The notes beneath the pieces are model-generated. The model was not told where the DNA came from, ran no database searches, and worked only from the letters and a program-made list of their open reading frames with translations. DNA of 64,000 nucleotides, taken from NCBI RefSeq assembly GCF_900128495.1, contig NZ_LT635801.1, positions 941,997 to 1,005,996 of the forward strand, written 5' to 3'. This document shows positions 2,554 to 48,425 of the stretch, piece after piece (the first letter of the stretch is position 1; each line of letters begins with the position of its first letter). Origin of the DNA: Bacteroides ilei. GTDB taxonomy: Bacteria; Bacteroidota; Bacteroidia; Bacteroidales; Bacteroidaceae. Both the position numbers and the translations under genes were made by a program.

Positions 2554-3567
2554 TTATTCTTCCTTTCCGTTCTGGTGTGTTTTGGATGCCTTTCTCCCGG
2601 CTTCAGCAGTTGCGGCCTTTTCGGCTTTCATTTTCTCCTCAAACTTTTCATAGGCTTCTACGATGCGGGTAACGAGTTTATGGCGGACAATGTCTTTTTT
2701 GTTCAGTTCAATGAAGCTGATACCTTTTACTCCTTTCAGTATCTTGATGGCTTGTATCAGACCGGAAGCCTGTGATGAAGGAAGGTCAATCTGGGTCATG
2801 TCGCCCGTTACAATCATTTTTGTATTCATACCCATACGGGTGAGGAACATCTTTATCTGCTGGCTTGTAGTGTTCTGGGCTTCGTCCAGAATAACGACGG
2901 CGTCATTCAATGTGCGTCCGCGCATGAATGCTAGCGGTGCAATCTGGATGATATTCAGTTCCATGTATTCTTTCAGCTTGGCTGCCGGAATCATATCCTG
3001 CAGGGCGTCATAGAGCGGTTGCAGGTACGGATCTATCTTGTCTTTCATATCGCCGGGGAGAAAACCCAGTTTTTCTCCGGCTTCAACAGCCGGACGGCTC
3101 AGAATGATTTTCTTTATTTCCTTATTTTTAAGGGCTCTGACGGCTAATGCAATTGCTGTATAAGTCTTGCCCGATCCGGCCGGGCCGATAGCAAATATCA
3201 TGTCATTCTTGTCGAATTCCTTGACCAGTTTCAATTGGTTTGCACTGCGGGGAGTTATAGGTTTTCCCGTTACGCTGTATACGATGGCGTCGCCCACTTT
3301 CTGTGCTTGAGGCTTGTTGCCTTTTACTATGTCAAGTATAGTTTCTTCGTTAAGTGAATTGTATTGGGCACAATATTTCTCCAGAGCCAACACGGCTTCT
3401 TCGAAGGCGCACATTTCTTCTTCGTCTCCCATTACTTTGATGACATCTCCTCTTGCCACGATGCGCAGTTTGGGAAACAATGCCTTGATCATTTGCATGT
3501 TGGCGTTGTTTACGCCATAAAAGATAACCGGATCAATATCTTCTAGTACAATATGTTTTTCAATCAT
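2554..3567 (-). CDS. phoH: PhoH family ATPase
   Basis: This is a 337-residue PhoH-like protein. A small N-terminal nucleic-acid-binding-like domain (about residues 1-90) precedes the PhoH ATPase core. The Walker A motif GPAGSGKT is at 128-135, and VILDEAQNTT carries the Walker B. The C-terminus is lysine-rich and low in complexity. PhoH proteins are cytoplasmic ATPases linked to RNA metabolism, often near ybeY; their exact substrate is not settled. It is the first gene of the minus-strand operon with purC, ubiE and aroE. A -7-like box (TAAATTTG on the minus strand, 3605-3612) lies about 40 bp before the start. Confidence 0.93.
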   Translation of the reverse strand: MIEKHIVLEDIDPVIFYGVNNANMQMIKALFPKLRIVARGDVIKVMGDEEEMCAFEEAVLALEKYCAQYNSLNEETILDIVKGNKPQAQKVGDAIVYSVTGKPITPRSANQLKLVKEFDKNDMIFAIGPAGSGKTYTAIALAVRALKNKEIKKIILSRPAVEAGEKLGFLPGDMKDKIDPYLQPLYDALQDMIPAAKLKEYMELNIIQIAPLAFMRGRTLNDAVVILDEAQNTTSQQIKMFLTRMGMNTKMIVTGDMTQIDLPSSQASGLIQAIKILKGVKGISFIELNKKDIVRHKLVTRIVEAYEKFEEKMKAEKAATAEAGRKASKTHQNGKEE

Positions 3568-3604
3568 TCAATAAATTTAGATAGCTCGTAAGTTTAATTT
3601 CTTG

Positions 3605-3612
3605 CAAATTTA
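3605..3612 (-). promoter_or_regulatory. Candidate -7 box of the phoH-purC-ubiE-aroE operon
   Basis: On the minus strand this reads TAAATTTG, matching the Bacteroidetes -7 consensus TAnnTTTG, 38 bp before the phoH start codon. No clear TTTG -33 box is visible at 19-21 bp, so the assignment is tentative. Confidence 0.4.
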
Positions 3613-3691
3613 ATCAATCCTTTTGATACTTGACGTAAATCAGGTAATTTATTTCAGCTTTTGATTGTTTCACGTTTCAGATTATTATCTA

Positions 3692-3699
3692 TATCTTTG
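3692..3699 (+). promoter_or_regulatory. Candidate -7 box for the DUF5715 lipoprotein and truA
   Basis: TATCTTTG matches the TAnnTTTG consensus exactly and lies 69 bp before the first possible start codon at 3769. The -33 region is weak (TTTC about 20 bp upstream). Confidence 0.45.
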
Positions 3700-3768
3700 T
3701 GTCGGTAAATTTTGAATAAGGACATATCTTGTCCGTGAACGCTAGTTTCTGCGGAACTTAATTTTGAC

Positions 3769-4434
3769 ATGTGCATGAAAAAGCTATTTCTTATGGCTGT
3801 ACTTATATTTCCGGCCTTGCTGGTGGGATGTGGACATAAGGACAGATCCATCCGCCTGAATTATCCTCATAATATCCGTGGGGTAATAAGTTATAAACGA
3901 AGTTTCAATGATTTGAATGATGTGCAGCTTGCTTCTGCAAAACGTTTGGGTATCAAACCTGTATCGTCACGTGAACAGGCGGAAGAGTTGAAAGGCAGGC
4001 TGATGGAGATTTCTTCGTGTGACCGCTATGACGTGGATGAACTGACTCACTCCATACCCTATCTGGTGCCGGAAGCAAGTGCATTACTAGATACTATTTC
4101 GATGAATTTTCTGGATTCATTGGCGTGTAAAGGACTTAATCCTAATAAGCTGGTGGTTACATCGGTATTGAGGACCAAAGACGACGTGAAGAAACTACGC
4201 CGTACGAACGGTAATGCTTCCGAAAATTCGTGCCATTTCTATGGAACGACTTTTGATATCAGCTGGAAACGTTTTACAAAGGTGGAGGATCCCGACGGAC
4301 GCCCGATGCAGGATGTCGGGGCGGATACGTTGAAGCTTGTGTTGTCGGAAGTGCTGCGTGATATGCGTCAGTCCGACCGTTGTTATGTAAAGTATGAATT
4401 GAAACAGGGATGTTTCCATATAACGGTCCGTTAA
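3769..4434 (+). CDS. Lipoprotein with peptidase-M15-like metal site (DUF5715-like)
   Basis: The 221-residue protein begins with a lipoprotein signal ending in LLVGC (Cys21), so it is probably exported and lipid-anchored. The C-terminal half resembles the D-Ala-D-Ala carboxypeptidase (peptidase M15/VanY) fold: [12 protein letters not shown] carries His156 and Asp163, and CFHITVR at the C-terminus carries His217, the expected H-D-H zinc ligand order. A role in trimming peptidoglycan stem peptides is therefore an inference. I place it in the DUF5715-type group from memory. An ATG at 3775 is an equally good start and gives a cleaner signal peptide. The stop codon is 2 bp before truA, so the two are cotranscribed. 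Confidence 0.75.
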
Positions 4435-4436
4435 AG

Positions 4437-5204
4437 ATGGCTAGGTATTTCATTTATTTGGCATACGATGGGACAAATTACCACGGATGGCAGATCCAAC
4501 CGAACGGTAACAGTGTACAGGAGACTTTGATAAAGGCTCTTTCTACGTTTTTGCGCCGACAGGTCGATGTGGTAGGGGCAGGACGTACCGATGCAGGTGT
4601 GCATGCACGTATGATGGTAGCTCATTTCGATTTTGAGGATGGACTGGACTGTCTGTCTGTAACCGATAAGTTGAACCGTTTGCTTCCTCCTGATATTTCG
4701 GTCTATAAGGTCTGCCGGGTAAAGCCGGATGCACACGCACGTTTCGACGCCCTTTACCGTACCTATAAATATTATGTTACTACTCGCAAAAGTCCGTTTA
4801 ACAGGATGTATGCCTGGCGTATCTATCAGCCGTTGGATTTTGAAAAGATGAACGAGGCTGCTGCCACATTGTTTGATTATGTAGACTTTACCAGTTTCAG
4901 CAAGGTACATACCGATGTAAAGACCAATAATTGTAGGATTATGTATGCCCGTTGGGAGCAGACGGGTGATTCGGAATGGGTGTTTACCATTCAGGCCGAC
5001 CGTTTTTTGCGTAATATGGTACGTGCCGTGGTGGGTACGTTGGTAGAAGTGGGACGTGGAAAAATGACGGTCGACGGATTCCGTAAAGTGATTGAAAGAA
5101 AAGACCGTTGCAGTGCTGGATCATCGGTACCTGGACATGCCTTGTTTCTGGTAGATGTGGGCTATCCCACTACATTGTTTCTTGATATTGTCTGTGAGGA
5201 CTAG
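4437..5204 (+). CDS. truA: tRNA pseudouridine(38-40) synthase TruA
   Basis: From ATG 4437 the protein has 255 residues. [13 protein letters not shown] is the usual TruA N-terminus, and [11 protein letters not shown] contains the catalytic Asp52. [17 protein letters not shown] in the C-terminal half is also typical. It isomerises uridines 38-40 in the tRNA anticodon arm. The reading frame is open back to 4410, but that extension overlaps the upstream gene and lacks similarity to the family, so ATG 4437 (2 bp after the upstream stop) is preferred. Its TAG stop overlaps the stop of the convergent gene within a single CTAG at 5201-5204. Confidence 0.96.
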
Positions 5205-15950: not shown

Positions 15951-17117
15951 ATGGCTGTATATCTGTTTAATCCGGAAAATGACATGGCGTTGGCTAATTT
16001 TACGCCTTATTACAGGCCGCCGGCTGAAATCGGGGTGATGGCTTCAGACCTGGCATTGCTTCCGGCATGGTATGCCGTGACGGGTAGTGTGGTGAAAGTC
16101 GGGGAAGATGAGTCGGAAAAAGAGTTTTTGGAGCGTTGTGGCACCCTTTGTCCTGATGTCCGTCTGTCGGGTTCGTTACTGGATATGCCTTACCGTCCGT
16201 GGGGCTGGTCGCCGGCCCTCGTCCATACCTTGCAGTCGGGAGGTGTTTCTTTGCAGTATCTGCCTGATACCGCGCGGCTGGAAAAGATCCGTCAGCTTTC
16301 ATGCCGGCGCCGTGCCGGGGAGGTCTTGGAGAAGTTGCAAAGTATGGAGGGGTGTTGTGGCTTGTCTGCATATGTCACTTCGCTGGAAAGTGTCCGCTCA
16401 TTTCTAGAGCGGTATGTGCGTGTCATATTCAAATCTCCCTGGTCGGGTAGTGGAAGGGGGCTGGTTACGGTAACTTCCAGGGAATTGTCGGCCTCATATG
16501 AAGGATGGATTTTAAGGATTATCCGAACACAGGGAGGGATTATGGCCGAACCTTTATATGATAAGGTGGTTGATTTCGCTATGGAGTTTTATTCGGACGG
16601 GAAAGGTGAGATGAAATTTGTGGGGTATTCACTTTTTGATACAGATACTCATGGAAACTATAAGGGAAATTTCCTGATGTCGGACCAGGCTATCGTACAG
16701 ACCTTGTCGGCATATGTTTCTCCGGATCTGCTGACTGCAGTCCGTACTTCCCTGCTGGAAATTTTTGTGCCGTTATTGGGCGGGGATTATCTAGGTTATT
16801 TCGGAGTGGATATGATGATATGTCGGGACAACGGCCGGTATCTCCTTCATCCTTGTGTGGAAATCAACTTGAGGATGAATATGGGAGTCGTTTCTCATAT
16901 ATTGTATGAACGTCTTATCTGTCCGGATGTAAAAGGTAGGTTCCATATTGTCCATTTTACGGGGGAAGGGGAATGTCTTGACTTCTATAAGACGCAGTGT
17001 GGAAGTTTCCCTCTGGAATTGGATAAAGACCGCATCGTAAATGGATATTTTGCGTTGACTCCGGTAGGACCGGGTACACGTTATCATGCTTGTCTGCATG
17101 TAGGTGGAAGCTTTTAA
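15951..17117 (+). CDS. Uncharacterised conserved protein, possibly ATP-grasp
   Basis: From ATG 15951 the protein has 388 residues. The N-terminus is MAVYLFNPENDMALANF; an upstream extension to 15828 crosses the likely promoter and is rejected. I do not recognise a named family. Two segments look like the ATP-grasp fold: FKSPWSGSGRGLV (a lysine followed by a glycine-rich loop, as in the ATP-binding flap) and CVEINLRMNMG near residue 305 (the E-x-N metal-binding motif). If so, it would join a carboxylate to an amine or thiol using ATP; the substrate is unknown. No signal peptide is seen, so it is cytoplasmic. It stands alone between the minus-strand ATPase and ppiD genes. Confidence 0.6.
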   Translation: MAVYLFNPENDMALANFTPYYRPPAEIGVMASDLALLPAWYAVTGSVVKVGEDESEKEFLERCGTLCPDVRLSGSLLDMPYRPWGWSPALVHTLQSGGVSLQYLPDTARLEKIRQLSCRRRAGEVLEKLQSMEGCCGLSAYVTSLESVRSFLERYVRVIFKSPWSGSGRGLVTVTSRELSASYEGWILRIIRTQGGIMAEPLYDKVVDFAMEFYSDGKGEMKFVGYSLFDTDTHGNYKGNFLMSDQAIVQTLSAYVSPDLLTAVRTSLLEIFVPLLGGDYLGYFGVDMMICRDNGRYLLHPCVEINLRMNMGVVSHILYERLICPDVKGRFHIVHFTGEGECLDFYKTQCGSFPLELDKDRIVNGYFALTPVGPGTRYHACLHVGGSF

Positions 17118-17267
17118 TGAAGAAGATTGTAGAGTCTGCAAAAAGATGAAGGTATTTTAGAAAAACTCCAGCATCTTTTCATGAAAATGCTAAGGACTTC
17201 GGATTCAAACTTCTTGGTCTTTAAGATGAAACTCCTTCTTGTTTTTCGTCAAATGTCCATGAGACAT

Positions 17268-42149: not shown

Positions 42150-44828
42150 TTATTTTTTCAAAGCTGCAATGCTTTCTTTCAAGGCTGCAATCTTCGTTTC
42201 TGCGTCGGCTTGCTTCTTACGTTCCATTTCGATGACATTTGCCGGAGCTTTGCTTACAAACTTTTCATTGCCCAGCTTCTTCATGACACTCTGGAGGAAA
42301 CCTTCTTGGTATTTAAGATCGGCTTCAAGTTTTTTCAGTTCTTCTTCCACATTAATCAGGTTACCCAGAGGTACTGCGTATTCGGTTGTTCCCACCATGA
42401 AGGCTGCAGCACCTTCTGCCTTGTTGCCTACCATATTGATGGATGACAGGTTGCACAGTTTGGCTATGACCGGATTGAATGTGGCAACCGGGCTTTCACC
42501 TATCACTTCCAGTGACAGGGCTTCTTTCTGTGCGATGTTCTTCTGCAGACGGATGGTACGGATACCACCGATCACTTCTTTTACGGCTTCGAACTGTGCA
42601 ATGATCTTCTCATCGTATTTGTCGGAAATCTGCAAGAGCTGTACCATGATGCTTTCTCCCGGTTTACGATCGTAGATATGCTGCCACAATTCTTCGGTGA
42701 TGAACGGCATGAACGGATGCAGCAGTTTCAGCAGGGTGTCGAAGAATTCCAAAGTCTTTTCATACGTTGTCTTGTCGATAGGCTGGCCATAGGCCGGTTT
42801 CACCATTTCGAGGTACCAGCTTGAGAATTCGTCCCAGAACAGTTTGTATACAGCCATCAGGGCTTCGCTCAGACGATATTTGCCGAAGAGGTCGTTTACT
42901 TCGGCTGCCGTCTTGCACAGCATGGCATCAAACCATTCTGTAGCCAGTTTGGCATATTCCGGCTGTTCCATGTCGGCTACATTCCATCCCTTGACCAGGC
43001 GGAAGGCATTCCAGATCTTGTTGTTGAAGTTACGTCCCTGTTCGCAGAGTGCGTCGTCGAACAGAATGTCGTTACCGGCCGGAGCCGAGAGCATCATACC
43101 CATACGTACACCGTCGGCACCGTATTTGTCGATCAGTTCCAGCGGATCGGGTGAATTACCCAGTGACTTTGACATCTTGCGTCCCAGCTTGTCGCGTACG
43201 ATACCGGTAAAGTAAACGTTCTTGAACGGCATGTCGCCCATGTATTCGTAGCCAGCCATGATCATACGGGCTACCCAGAAGAAGATGATGTCCGGACCGG
43301 TTACCAGGTCGGAAGTAGGGTAGTAGTATTTTATTTCTTCATTGCCCGGATTGTTGATGCCGTCGAACAGGGAGATCGGCCACAGCCAGGATGAGAACCA
43401 GGTATCCAGACAGTCGTCGTCCTGACGCAGGTCTTCCGGTTTCAGGTTCTGGTTACCTGTTTTCTGTTTTGCCAGTTCGAGAGCCTGTTCCGGGGTTTCG
43501 GCTACCACATAGCCGCCTTGCGGCAGGTAATAGGCCGGAATGCGGTGTCCCCACCACAATTGACGGCTGATACACCAGTCTTTGATGTTTTCCAGCCAGT
43601 TGCGGTACGTATTCTTGTATTTGGCCGGATAGAACTTCAGCTCGTCGTTCATTACGGGCGGCAAGGCCATATCGGCAAAGTGTTTCATCTTCAGGAACCA
43701 CTGCATGGAAAGCTTCGGCTCAATGGCCACGTTGGTACGTTCGGAGAAACCCACCTTGTTGGTATAGGCTTCCACCTTTTCCAGCAGTCCGGCAGCGTCC
43801 AGGTCCTTTTCAATCTGTTCACGTACATCGAAACGGTCCATGCCCACATACATGCCGGCAGCTTCGCTCAAAGTACCGTTGTCATTGAAGATATCGATCG
43901 ATTTCAGGTTGTATTTTTCACCCAGCATGTAGTCGTTCACATCGTGGGCCGGAGTAACTTTCAGACATCCTGTACCGAATTCGATGTCTACATAATCGTC
44001 TTCGATAACCGGAATAACACGGTTTACCAGCGGTACGATGACCTGTTTGCCTTTCAGCCAGTGGTTTTTCGGATCGTTTGGATTGATACACATGGCGGTA
44101 TCACCCATGATGGTTTCCGGACGGGTTGTGGCCACTACAGCGTAACGGCGTCCCTGGGCATCACGGTGGACTACTTCGCCTTCTTCACCGGTTTCACCGC
44201 TCATATCGTCATTGGCCACGTAGTAACGGAGATAGTACAGCTTGCTGTGTTCTTCCTTGTAGATTACTTCCTCATCGCTCAGGGCTGTCAGGGCTTTCGG
44301 GTCCCAGTTTACCATACGTACGCCTCGGTATATCAGGCCTTTGTTGTATAGGTCAACAAAAACTTTGATGACGCTTGCACTACGCTTCTCGTCCATGGTG
44401 AAGGCGGTGCGATCCCAGTCACATGAAGCACCCAGTTTGCGGAGTTGTTTCAATATGATACCTCCGTGCTCTTCGGTCCATGCCCATGCATGTTTCAGGA
44501 ATTCCTCACGGGTAAGGTCGGTCTTCTTGATTCCCTGCTGGGCAAGCTTGTTTACTACTTTGGCTTCTGTGGCGATAGAAGCGTGGTCGGTTCCCGGTAC
44601 CCAGCAGGCGTTCTTACCCATCATGCGGGCGCGGCGGACCAGAATATCCTGAATGGTATTGTTAAGCATGTGTCCCATGTGGAGCACTCCGGTAACGTTT
44701 GGCGGCGGAATGACGACGGTGTAAGGTTCACGTCCGTCGGGTTTAGAACTGAAAAGTTTGTTGTCCAGCCAATACTGGTACCATTTTCCCTCCACGTCAG
44801 CGGGATTGTACTTACTTGCTAATTCCAT
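42150..44828 (-). CDS. valS: Valine-tRNA ligase
   Basis: Starting at ATG 44826-44828, the 892-residue protein begins [17 protein letters not shown]. An upstream open frame to 44879 lacks family similarity. The class I HIGH motif is HMGH at 50-53, in [16 protein letters not shown], and KMSKS is at 551-555. The CP1 editing domain (about 200-345) includes [13 protein letters not shown]. The C-terminus ends in the ValRS coiled-coil arm. It charges tRNA-Val and edits mischarged Thr. It is monocistronic, with its own terminator and a possible -7 box TAATTTTG (minus strand, 44877-44884). Confidence 0.97.
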
Positions 44829-44884: not shown

Positions 44885-44974
44885 ATAAAAGTAGTTGAAT
44901 TACTTACATTGTAAGAGATGAAAATCCGTCCTTTGTCGGTAAAGGTGAACCTGTGCCGCAGGCCGGATGGAAAT

Positions 44975-45096
44975 CTTCAAGTTCTTTTGTCTGGAAGTTC
45001 AAGTCCTTTTAACTGGTCCGTCAAGGCGTTTTCATTGACATTTCAAATTCTTTTTTCAGAAAATTCAAGTTCTTTTGGCAGAATATCAAGTTCTTT
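44975..45096. repeat. Six-copy tandem array of a ~22-bp unit
   Basis: The core TTCAAGTTCTTTT or a close variant starts at 44975, 44997, 45019, 45041, 45063 and 45084, that is with spacing 22, 22, 22, 22 and 21 bp. The third copy is the most diverged (GTCAAGGCGTTTT) and the fourth has A for G. Together with 68 bp to a downstream -7 box, it fills most of the 384-bp gap between divergent valS and the peptide transporter. No protein-coding frame is convincing here. Confidence 0.85.
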
Positions 45097-45163
45097 TTTG
45101 CCGTTCCGGATGTTTATACGGCTTAAATTCCGACAAAATGTGTAAATATTCGCCACTTTATTA

Positions 45164-45171
45164 TATATTTG
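45164..45171 (+). promoter_or_regulatory. Candidate -7 box for the first POT transporter
   Basis: TATATTTG matches TAnnTTTG exactly, 41 bp before the start codon at 45213 and 67 bp after the tandem array. The -33 region is weak. Confidence 0.5.
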
Positions 45172-45212: not shown

Positions 45213-46778
45213 ATGTTCAAAAATCATCCTAAAGGTTTGCTGGCAGCAGCAATATCCAACATGGGCGAACGTTTTGGCTATTACATCATGAATGCCGTGC
45301 TGGTGTTGTTTCTCTGTTCCAAGTTCGGCTTGAGTGACGAAACCAGTTCCATCATCTATTCGGTATTTTATTGTGGCATCTATGTATTGAGCCTGGTTGG
45401 GGGTATCATTGCCGACAAGACACAAAATTATAAGGCTACTATCATGTCCGGGCTGATAGTGATGTCCTTGGGATATGTAATCCTTTCTGTTCCGGTATTG
45501 TCTACCGAAAACAATATCGGCTGGCTGTTGCCGCTTACCTGTGTGGCATTATTCCTGATTGCTTTCGGTAACGGTCTGTTCAAGGGGAACCTGCAGGCTA
45601 TTGTGGGCCAGATGTATGACAATTATGAAAAGGAAGCTGCCGAAAAGGGTCCCGAGGCCCTCAAGGTTGCCAGAAGTCGCCGTGATTCCGGTTTCCAGAT
45701 ATTCTACGTATTCATCAATGTGGGTGGTCTGGTAGCCCCGTTCGTGGCTCCGTTGCTGAGAGAGTGGTGGCTGAAAGCACACAGTCTGGCTTATAACGCC
45801 GATCTTCCTGCATTGTGTCACCAGTATCTTAAGGAAGGTGCAGGTATGGCCGCCGAAAGTTTCCAGAACATGTCTGAGCTGGTAGTCAAGGTAGGAGGTA
45901 CCATGACAGGCGATATGACTGCGTTCTGTACGGAGTATCTTGATGTGTTCAACACCGGTATCCATTATTCCTTCATCGCTTCGGTACTGGCTATGCTCAT
46001 TTCCTTGTTTATCTTCATCATCAACCGGAATGTGTTCCCTACCCCGGGCAAGAAGACAGCCCAAAGTGCTGCCGGTTATACTCCGGAAGAGAAGGCTGCC
46101 ATGGCCAAGGAAATCAAGCAGCGTATGTATGCCTTGTTCGCCGTGCTGGCCATCGTAATCTTCTTCTGGTTCTCATTCCATCAGAACGGTCAGTCGCTTT
46201 CCCTCTTCGCGCGTGACTTTGTGGTGACCGAAAGTATCGCTCCCGAAATTTGGCAGGCAGTGAATCCATTCTTCGTGATTGTGCTGACTCCGATCATCAT
46301 GTGGTTCTTCGGGATGTTCACACGCCGCGGCAAAGAGATTTCTACTCCTAGAAAAATTGCCATCGGTATGGCTGTAGCGGGTATCGCTTACTTGTTCCTG
46401 GCTATTTATTCCGGTGTTATGGACTATCCTTCCGCCACCGATTTCAAGGCGTTGTCCGACTCGGCCAAAGCAGGTGTAAAGGCAGGTCCATGGGTCTTGA
46501 TTGTGGTTTATTTCTTCCTCACCGTTGCCGAGCTGTTCATTTCTCCGCTGGGGCTTTCATTTGTTTCGAAAGTTGCTCCAAAGAATGTGCAGGGATTGTG
46601 CCAGGGATTGTGGCTGGGAGCTACCGCTGTTGGTAACATCTTCCTGTGGATCGGTCCGCTGATGTATAACAAACTTCCTATCTGGGAATGTTGGGCAGTT
46701 TTCTTTGTGGTATGTCTGATTTCGATGGGCGTTATGCTTGGAATGGTCAAATGGCTTGAACGTGTAGTGAACTGTTAA
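45213..46778 (+). CDS. POT-family proton-dependent peptide transporter (first copy)
   Basis: The 521-residue membrane protein has the POT/PTR signatures: GMGERFGYYIMNAVLVLFL at the N-terminus (the E-R-F-x-Y-Y motif of helix 1), GGIIADK, and the helix 4-5 region DSGFQIFYVFINVGGL. About 14 helices are predicted, with a large central insert (about 180-260). It takes up di- and tripeptides with protons. It is divergent from valS and convergent with a second POT gene that differs clearly in sequence, so this is not a recent tandem copy. Confidence 0.92.
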   Translation: MFKNHPKGLLAAAISNMGERFGYYIMNAVLVLFLCSKFGLSDETSSIIYSVFYCGIYVLSLVGGIIADKTQNYKATIMSGLIVMSLGYVILSVPVLSTENNIGWLLPLTCVALFLIAFGNGLFKGNLQAIVGQMYDNYEKEAAEKGPEALKVARSRRDSGFQIFYVFINVGGLVAPFVAPLLREWWLKAHSLAYNADLPALCHQYLKEGAGMAAESFQNMSELVVKVGGTMTGDMTAFCTEYLDVFNTGIHYSFIASVLAMLISLFIFIINRNVFPTPGKKTAQSAAGYTPEEKAAMAKEIKQRMYALFAVLAIVIFFWFSFHQNGQSLSLFARDFVVTESIAPEIWQAVNPFFVIVLTPIIMWFFGMFTRRGKEISTPRKIAIGMAVAGIAYLFLAIYSGVMDYPSATDFKALSDSAKAGVKAGPWVLIVVYFFLTVAELFISPLGLSFVSKVAPKNVQGLCQGLWLGATAVGNIFLWIGPLMYNKLPIWECWAVFFVVCLISMGVMLGMVKWLERVVNC

Positions 46779-46874: not shown

Positions 46875-48425
46875 TTATTCAGTGCCTTTCATCATTCCGT
46901 TGAGCTTGCCTGAAAGCAGGAAGAGGATGACGGCTGCCGTACCGCTCATGAATACGAACAGCATGAAGAATTCATACAGGTTGGTGATCTGGTATCCCAT
47001 AAAGCTTCTGGCCATACCTCCTTCCGGATAATAACCGCTTAATACACCTGCAAACTTGTTGGCCGCCGATGTGCTGAGATACCATACTCCCATGAGCAGG
47101 GAAGAGAAACGGAGCGGGGAGAGCCTGTATACGAGCGACAGTCCGATTGGGGCCAGGCAAAGTTCACCGATGGTGTGTATGAGGTAAAGTCCGGTCAGCC
47201 ACAGCATGCTTACCTTTACTCCCGGAGCCACGTCCTTTACTCCGTATGCGATAAACAGGTATCCCATAGATAGCAGGAACAGTCCGATAGCCTGTTTGCG
47301 GGGTGAACTCGGCTCAATCCCTTTCCGGCCCAGGAAGGACCAGAATGAAGCCAGTATAGGAGCCAGTACAACAATCATGATGGGGTTGAACGACTGGAAA
47401 TAGGCCGCTGGCATTTCCCATCCACCTATCATACGGTCGGTCTGTTCGTCGGCGAAAAACGTCAGTGAAGCTCCTGCCTGTTCGTAGGCGGCCCAGAAGA
47501 AGATGACGAAAAAGGCTATGATATAGATTACTCCGATGCGTGTCTTTTCGGTTCTTGTCAGGCTCCGGTCGGTAATGATTGTTATCGGAATTACAATGGT
47601 TGTGGCATAGATGATGGAGCCTATCCAGTCGGCTCCGGTAAAAAGTCCTTCACCTGTATTTCCCCAGTTGACGGAAAACAGGACTGTAAGAATGACGGTT
47701 CCCGCCACCATCCAGGTTGTCCGTTTGTTCCCGTTCTTGTCTTTGGGTGTCTGCGCTTCGGAATCTGCCGGTTTCCGCTTGGGAGCGATTCCTACAGGAT
47801 TCCCTTCGGGGTCATGAATGTATCTGTTCTTAAAGATAGAGAATACGGCTGCTCCCAGAATCATACCTATGCATGCCGAGAGGAACCCCCATTTGAAATC
47901 TTCCGGATGTCCGGTATTCCCCACAAGTCCGCATACCAGCGGGGCCAGCATCGAACCTGCGTTGACGCCCATGTAGAAAATGGTGAATGCCGAGTCTTTC
48001 CGTGTATCGTTGTCGGTATAGAGGCGGCCTACCATGGTGGAGATGTTTGGCTTGAAAAAACCGTTTCCTAAGATCAGCAGACCGAGGCCGCAGAACATGA
48101 GCCATTTGGCTAGTCCTATCTGGTGGAAATAGCAGGCGCTCAGGAAGAGGAAGAATTGTCCTACTGCCATGGTCAGTGCCCCAACTACGATAGAACGCCG
48201 GTTTCCCCAGTAGCGGTCGGCTATATAGCCACCTATCAGCGGAGTCAGATAAACCAATCCGGTATAACTTCCGTATACTTGCGATGCGAATTCTTTGTCG
48301 AAAAGAAGTGCCTGTACCATATACAGCATGAACAATGCACGCATGCCGTAGTAACTGAAACGTTCCCACATTTCGGTTACGAAAAGGAGATAAAGTCCTT
48401 TTGGATGTCCTTTTGTTGGATTCAT
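46875..48425 (-). CDS. POT-family proton-dependent peptide transporter (second copy)
   Basis: The 516-residue protein has the helix-1 motif EMWERFSYYGMRALFMLYM, GGYIADRYWGNR, the helix 4-5 motif DSAFTIFYMGVNAGSMLAPL, and about 14 helices. It is closer to the classical DtpT-like form than its convergent neighbour. A positively charged stretch near 210-235 (IAPKRKPADSEAQTPKDK) is the central cytoplasmic loop. It has a consensus promoter upstream. With the first POT gene it suggests reliance on peptide uptake. Confidence 0.93.
   Translation of the reverse strand: MNPTKGHPKGLYLLFVTEMWERFSYYGMRALFMLYMVQALLFDKEFASQVYGSYTGLVYLTPLIGGYIADRYWGNRRSIVVGALTMAVGQFFLFLSACYFHQIGLAKWLMFCGLGLLILGNGFFKPNISTMVGRLYTDNDTRKDSAFTIFYMGVNAGSMLAPLVCGLVGNTGHPEDFKWGFLSACIGMILGAAVFSIFKNRYIHDPEGNPVGIAPKRKPADSEAQTPKDKNGNKRTTWMVAGTVILTVLFSVNWGNTGEGLFTGADWIGSIIYATTIVIPITIITDRSLTRTEKTRIGVIYIIAFFVIFFWAAYEQAGASLTFFADEQTDRMIGGWEMPAAYFQSFNPIMIVVLAPILASFWSFLGRKGIEPSSPRKQAIGLFLLSMGYLFIAYGVKDVAPGVKVSMLWLTGLYLIHTIGELCLAPIGLSLVYRLSPLRFSSLLMGVWYLSTSAANKFAGVLSGYYPEGGMARSFMGYQITNLYEFFMLFVFMSGTAAVILFLLSGKLNGMMKGTE

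Follow-up and report, generated by a model that had tools for sequence, protein, structure and literature searches.

Intergenic 22-bp pseudo-dyad arrays: a dispersed family in Bacteroides ilei and related Bacteroidales

The region between valS and a gene for a POT-family peptide transporter in Bacteroides ilei carries six imperfect copies of a short unit in tandem, and the locus raises the question whether such an array belongs to these two genes or to a more general type of element, and whether it is read as DNA, folds as RNA or is a product of repeat spread. We report that the array belongs to a family of intergenic arrays dispersed through the genomes of B. ilei and relatives, and that the family and its geometry, not the valS/POT copy, are conserved.

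The array at the valS/POT locus

The relevant features in the window (the whole stretch of DNA that was analysed, 64 kb) are as follows.

42150..44828, minus strand: valS, valine--tRNA ligase (NF004349, TIGR00422)
44972..45099, plus strand: whole array, spacings 22, 22, 22, 22 and 21 bp
44972..44987, plus strand: unit 1, AATCTTCAAGTTCTTT (core search with shuffles, lattice position)
44994..45009, plus strand: unit 2, GAAGTTCAAGTCCTTT (core search with shuffles, lattice position)
45016..45031, plus strand: unit 3, GTCCGTCAAGGCGTTT, the most degenerate of the six (lattice position)
45038..45053, plus strand: unit 4, ACATTTCAAATTCTTT (core search with shuffles, lattice position)
45060..45075, plus strand: unit 5, AAAATTCAAGTTCTTT (core search with shuffles, lattice position)
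45081..45096, plus strand: unit 6, terminal, preceded by a 21-bp interval (5-nt linker) and followed by TTT to 45099
45164..45171, plus strand: TATATTTG, presumably a -7-like box of Bacteroides type serving the POT gene (motif match by eye)
45213..46778, plus strand: POT-family oligopeptide:H+ symporter (TIGR00924)

That a six-unit tandem array is present between the two genes, as given in a preliminary description of the window, was borne out by TRF (period 22, 5.6 copies, score 72 at 44976-45097) and by a core search against shuffled sequence. Specifically, the core TTCAAGTTCTTTT with at most one mismatch occurs five times in the window, every time inside this array, and 100 shuffles gave a mean of 0.20 and a maximum of 2 occurrences. 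The spacings had been given correctly, with coordinates that were one base too low; the 13-base core described as conserved does recur along the array but is exact in only two of the six units (44976 and 45064), while three others carry one mismatch and the third unit has largely diverged, its core GTCAAGGCGTTTT retaining only TCAAG and TTTT. Each unit is built as a 16-bp pseudo-dyad, AAA-N10-TTT, and the linkers between units are 5-6 bp.

Since valS is on the minus strand and the POT gene on the plus strand, the region is divergent; with the ATG at 44828 taken as the valS start, 143 bp separate this codon from the array, and the array end lies 116 bp from the POT ATG. By eye, what we take to be Bacteroides-type promoter boxes are present both between the array and valS and between the array and the POT gene, and because these promoter-like boxes separate the array from each gene it probably lies outside both transcripts. 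DNA matches of this array to other B. ilei arrays mostly stop where it ends on the right (at query 499-500 in four of six). A coding function was rejected, the overlapping 75-aa ORF (44918-45145) having no match to any NCBIfam family, as was a known RNA family: Rfam at the gathering threshold, applied to the window and 14 B. ilei loci, gave five tRNAs only. We also note that two POT-family symporter genes are adjacent here (45213-46778 and 46875-48425) and convergent.

Census, spacing rule and unit number

In the B. ilei genome there are 19 exact matches to the core, mostly within arrays, compared with three for a reversed control. A two-unit sequence model (R1) built from 36 B. ilei dimers gave at least 110 matches at E ≤ 1 in this genome, in 54 clusters on contig 1 and at one place on contig 3. 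Among 53 loci examined, 46 yielded a total of 47 arrays under a rule that required a score of 13 for two or more units, and seven had no chain that passed the rule. This census is an undercount because R1 derives from TCAAG-type units and 150 of 2767 candidates were scored; even in the window one array was missed by R1, as well as by the preliminary description:

17141..17244, no strand assigned: second array of the lattice, five units at 22 bp, different unit cores

It sits between convergent ORFs ending at 17117 (plus strand) and 17321 (minus strand). Gene contexts predicted with a simple ORF caller were co-directional for 20, convergent for 12 and divergent for 11 of 43 B. ilei arrays. The array is not specific to the valS/POT promoter; the genome has dozens, and they occur in every gene context. 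Nor did a common class of neighbouring gene emerge: the 237 proteins flanking the arrays give only small clusters of two to four, some of which are one locus counted twice, and no flanking gene is shared beyond a few loci.

The 163 spacings in the 47 B. ilei arrays are 22 bp (113), 21 bp (43), 44 bp (5) or 43 bp (2), the latter two corresponding to one skipped unit, and none is 20 or 23 bp. Inner intervals (n=72) are 22 bp in 69 cases, 21 bp in one and 44 bp in two, and a 21-bp interval is found at an end in 37 of the 44 arrays having at least two intervals. When 37 arrays were aligned on this 21-bp end, the lattice signal (the fraction of arrays with at least four of six A/T) was 0.97, 1.0, 0.97, 0.78, 0.81 and 0.57 at six positions and fell to background beyond these (0.05-0.08; flanks 0.074); the unit score includes the A/T positions, so that the signal at detected units, not the fall after position six, is partly by construction. 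The B. ilei arrays stop after about six units: 18 of the 37 have six, ten have five, six have four and one has three, and the remaining two scored eight under the rule, which allowed a missed unit. Units occur in either orientation, yet one lattice is kept about the CAAG axis. Neither the direction in which the 21-bp end points nor the genomic spacing of the arrays showed a clear pattern by eye; for 46 arrays the gaps averaged 84 kb (CV 0.83).

Slippage during replication, or unequal crossing-over between copies of a short repeat, giving a functionless minisatellite, would account for direct-orientation units being more alike within a B. ilei array than between arrays (z up to 4.4), for an array of seven units in the relative G112 (L356) of which five are identical, and for an orthologous pair of arrays in G206 and G248 that differs by 43 bp, or two units. 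We nevertheless regard this origin as very improbable, given the lack of 20- and 23-bp spacings, the sharp upper unit number, the mixed orientations and the recurrence of one geometry in species whose unit sequences are unrelated. The preliminary description had likewise noted the spacing of two helical turns and judged the array to be unlike slippage, and this holds for all 163 spacings, each being 21 or 22 bp or a skipped unit. Moreover, a minisatellite has near-identical units in varying copy number, whereas 186 of 204 B. ilei units are distinct (three near-identical copies excluded) and array length is limited.

Similar arrays in other Bacteroidales had been anticipated, and they are present in the genus and in some genomes of the order. 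The exact two-unit pattern was found in one of 201 family genomes, that of B. ilei itself, and AAA-N10-TTT-N6 repeated three times matched in 32 of 60 genus genomes (B. ilei included), at up to 184 places in one. The reversed-pattern control gave 0 in 43 of the 60 and otherwise up to 33 (G216 33, G233 31, G247 25), its non-zero values arising because a second array kind exists with A and T exchanged. This second 22-bp kind, TTT-N10-AAA, was seen in G216 (L297, L303, L309, L314) and G211 (L278, L286, L287), and both kinds coexist in G211. Across the order, the pattern is found in 29 of 148 genomes; by eye, those of G002, G274, G376 and G307 include real arrays (in G002 the reversed control, 36, exceeds the pattern, 11), while G320, G302 and G258 merely have A+T-rich sequence. 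Outside the order, a YR form of the pattern matched none of 117 other genomes, a form that is too strict in that B. ilei also gave 0.

Three relatives were analysed unit by unit. The spacing is 22 bp in all 65 cases in G112 and in 44 of 45 in G202, and in G207 (n=62) it is 22 bp in 56 and 21 bp in six. Unit number and unit sequence are typical of each species. Unit sequences differ genome by genome, and 15 of 20 G202 arrays have three units and five have four, 19 of 20 G207 arrays have four and one has six, and, more loosely, the 18 G112 arrays have five (nine), four (seven), three (one) or seven (one); because the G112 and G202 loci were chosen by an exact three-unit pattern and those of G207 by a two-unit model, the minimum in these genomes is set by the search, the maximum not. 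The flanks of L355 and L357 in G112 contain further degenerate units by eye. In G206 and G248 together, ten real-looking arrays have 3-7 units, with five units in six of the ten.

Half-site symmetry and folding

The preliminary description had called the units binding-site-like, and as pseudo-dyads with a shared half-site consensus they do look the part. Half-sites inside units share this consensus with little Watson-Crick covariation (z -0.3 to 1.5 in G112 and -2.0 to 0.1 in G207), which is expected from contact with a symmetric or pseudo-symmetric protein and not from hairpins. In B. ilei, covariation is seen at unit pair 7 (z 2.8), but pairs 6 and 8 show anti-symmetry (z -4.0 and -10.8, respectively), and the units are therefore pseudo-dyads. 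In G207 the linkers and unit positions keep the Y/R class over the base (linker position 1: T 35, C 21; n=56), which hints at DNA deformability; wobble pairing would fit too.

Bidirectional intrinsic terminators have the order A-tract, core, T-tract, and the arrays resemble them in this respect. Tandem units could act through RNA hairpins and U-tracts as such terminators, or as antisense insulators. In G202, a stop codon is no more than 40 bp away from 13 of 20 arrays, and unit 1 is complementary to unit 3 (7.55 of 10 versus 4.69, z 5.9); G207 arrays have a median distance of 34 bp to stops and 60 bp to starts. Together with the complementary outer units, covariation at one G202 unit pair (z 3.0) and at one G207 linker pair (z 2.2) is consistent with hairpins. 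Moreover, between L381 in G202 and L271 in G237, two outer-unit pairs have changed on both sides and still pair, one has become a wobble and one is broken. Among 37 B. ilei arrays compared with lattice-matched mosaics, convergent (mean fold z -0.71, 11 arrays) and co-directional arrays (-0.80, 16) fold better than divergent ones (+0.58, 10). For divergent versus other arrays the Mann-Whitney p is 0.0065 with all included (four near-identical copies among them), 0.011 and 0.018 without three and four near-identical copies, respectively, 0.016 without the window array and 0.045 without all of these.

As a general account, however, termination is unlikely. Complementarity between units does not exceed chance within the 37 B. 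ilei arrays (largest z +0.5, several negative) or in G207 (19 arrays) and G112 (15 arrays), and hairpin formation would not call for a strict 22-bp pitch. An intrinsic terminator has a stable hairpin with a T-tract and lies downstream of a gene, while 11 of the 43 B. ilei arrays with assigned contexts, the window array included, lie between divergent genes, and the window array shows no more folding than shuffled sequence (z +0.96 and +1.23) and is the least folded of the 37, with the highest mean z against mosaics (+3.0 and +2.5). The arrays differ from bidirectional terminators in that they also occur in divergent regions, the hairpin is optional and the pitch is fixed. The lattice is maintained regardless of an array's ability to fold as RNA, and hairpins seem to be an added role at some places and in some species.

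Little base-pair covariation and a lattice independent of folding favour arrays that work as DNA and are recognised by a symmetric protein, and we tentatively prefer a lattice for a candidate symmetric DNA-binding protein, with a likelihood approaching even, over both terminators and a mobile element; these readings can be combined. We infer protein binding, a dimeric state, bending and function in the following model. Dimers of a putative DNA-binding protein would fill the dyads side by side on one helix face, A/T tracts flanking each dyad would aid DNA bending, and the resulting nucleoprotein patch of defined length could have an architectural, insulating or regulatory role where one transcription unit borders the next. 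Arrays directly behind genes would often have gained complementary units; these arrays, often hairpin-forming, may double as transcription terminators. Counted against the protein-read lattice are the lack of a recurrent flanking family, poor positional conservation and the hairpin signals in G202 and G207; in addition, the core diversity within one genome argues against one sequence-specific protein, which would usually tolerate less. An extended and improbable version would be a Bacteroidales system in which a fast-evolving DNA-binding machine reads whole arrays, its module number and half-site specificity co-evolving with the species-set number of three to six dyads, so that the chromosome-wide arrays would form an architectural code peculiar to each species.

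Turnover, spread and comparison with known elements

Conservation in relatives with the same flanking genes, whose absence the preliminary description had named as refuting, could not be upheld for the valS/POT copy. The two genes are not neighbours in G112 and G240, which have the two best POT matches, and in 25 of 27 genus valS upstream regions the first 700 bp lack a lattice that reaches a score of 8. The exceptions are G233, with five units of its own type at 166 bp, and G216, with three units of its own kind at 174 bp; below the threshold are a two-unit piece in G168 (L130, score 6, at 174) and a four-unit chain (L118, score 7.5, at 600). No lattice was detected at 14 flanks of genes orthologous to neighbours of nine B. 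ilei array loci, in unselected stretches of G211, G216, G206 and G248, where two more flanks lay at stretch ends and were unjudged, and no sampled relative retains both flanks of a B. ilei array together. Between other pairs of genomes arrays do persist: two orthologous arrays of G206 and G248 are kept unit by unit, in addition to the pair that differs by two units, and three units are kept at one place with altered sequences both in L381 (G202) and L271 (G237) and in L376 (G202) and L249 (G126).

Array-confined homology of 34-130 bp is shared by 20 pairs of B. ilei arrays; in the pair L178 and L195 it spans 130 bp at 81.5%, is bounded by the array within 2-3 bp and does not continue into the flanks. 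Some copies have therefore also spread. This homology, the turnover of positions between species (0 of 14 orthologous flanks with an array) and the near-fixed unit number per species would all suit a small non-autonomous mobile repeat of MITE- or REP-like type, in which a transposase or recombinase would recognise the lattice and arrays would spread as fixed-length blocks. We consider this rather unlikely: gene conversion between arrays could also give block homology, and the B. ilei arrays lack terminal inverted repeats (first unit versus reverse complement of the last, z -0.34), the composition being near background past the terminal unit and its T-tract. Furthermore, unit orientation varies at each array position, and most copies are thus not simple copies of one master. 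Finally, the Y1 transposase family PF01797 has no match in the B. ilei genome (completeness 99.98), compared with five positive genomes among 14 controls, which rules out a RAYT/REP system.

We found no description of such arrays in the literature searched, most subscription papers lying outside its reach, and the nearest element was BrickBuilt of P. gingivalis, a MITE/minisatellite with dispersed intergenic arrays of a 23-nt unit (PMC4596501, PMC5771137). In BrickBuilt, leader and tail segments carry small inverted-repeat ends, the number of repeats runs from 1 to 22.8 and the length is 84-991 nt, at 19 loci (PMC4596501). The likeness covers a dispersed, intergenic, species-restricted element in Bacteroidales with one conserved and one variable half per unit, whole-unit gain and loss and spacerless tandem repetition at about 23 nt (here a 22/21-bp period with a conserved core and variable linkers). 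The B. ilei arrays differ in having no leader or tail with terminal inverted repeats, in their 22-bp pseudo-dyad lattice, in a unit number of three to six that is near-fixed per species (mostly 4-6 in B. ilei, four in 19 of 20 G207 arrays) in place of 1 to about 23, and in their occurrence in many species.

REP and BIME elements with RAYT are short palindromic intergenic repeats that are species-specific and clustered, features in which the arrays resemble them. REP elements carry a GTAG/CGTC-type tag at the stem foot (PMC3733652; for REP/BIME-RAYT see also PMC6006769). The arrays differ in their strict lattice and near-fixed unit number, in a genome that has no Y1 transposase. Plasmid iterons and multi-site operators (ARG and MET boxes, for example) are dyads or direct repeats about two helical turns apart that are bound cooperatively. 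The B. ilei arrays have such in-phase dyads or direct repeats, with binding itself putative, but they are chromosome-wide, occur in all gene contexts and have a unit number set per species, not per gene. CRISPR arrays have identical repeats and unique spacers, 20-40 bp; a CRISPR array was rejected on account of the degenerate units and linkers of just 5-6 bp.

If a protein reads the arrays they could lead to nucleoid or regulatory proteins in Bacteroidales, and if they are mobile they represent a repeat element of very small size and unusual construction. The annotation of terminators and intergenic regions would be affected, and a unit number typical of each species gives a sharp prediction for which strain data would be a direct test.

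Near-identical arrays were also observed upstream of the 16S rRNA gene in L208 and in three loci with parts of the same leader. In L208 the array lies at about 2450-2600 and the 16S rRNA gene at 3228-4755; L200 and L216 share with the L208 leader about 789 bp up to the 16S start, and L177 shares 213 bp. The shared sequence starts within about 6 bp of the left end of the array, and a GC-rich palindrome, TGCGCATTGCGCATGCG, is found directly behind these arrays. In two other species, arrays (L218 in G080 and L219 in G062) adjoin a similar GC-rich inverted repeat, which is perhaps a separate mobile repeat.
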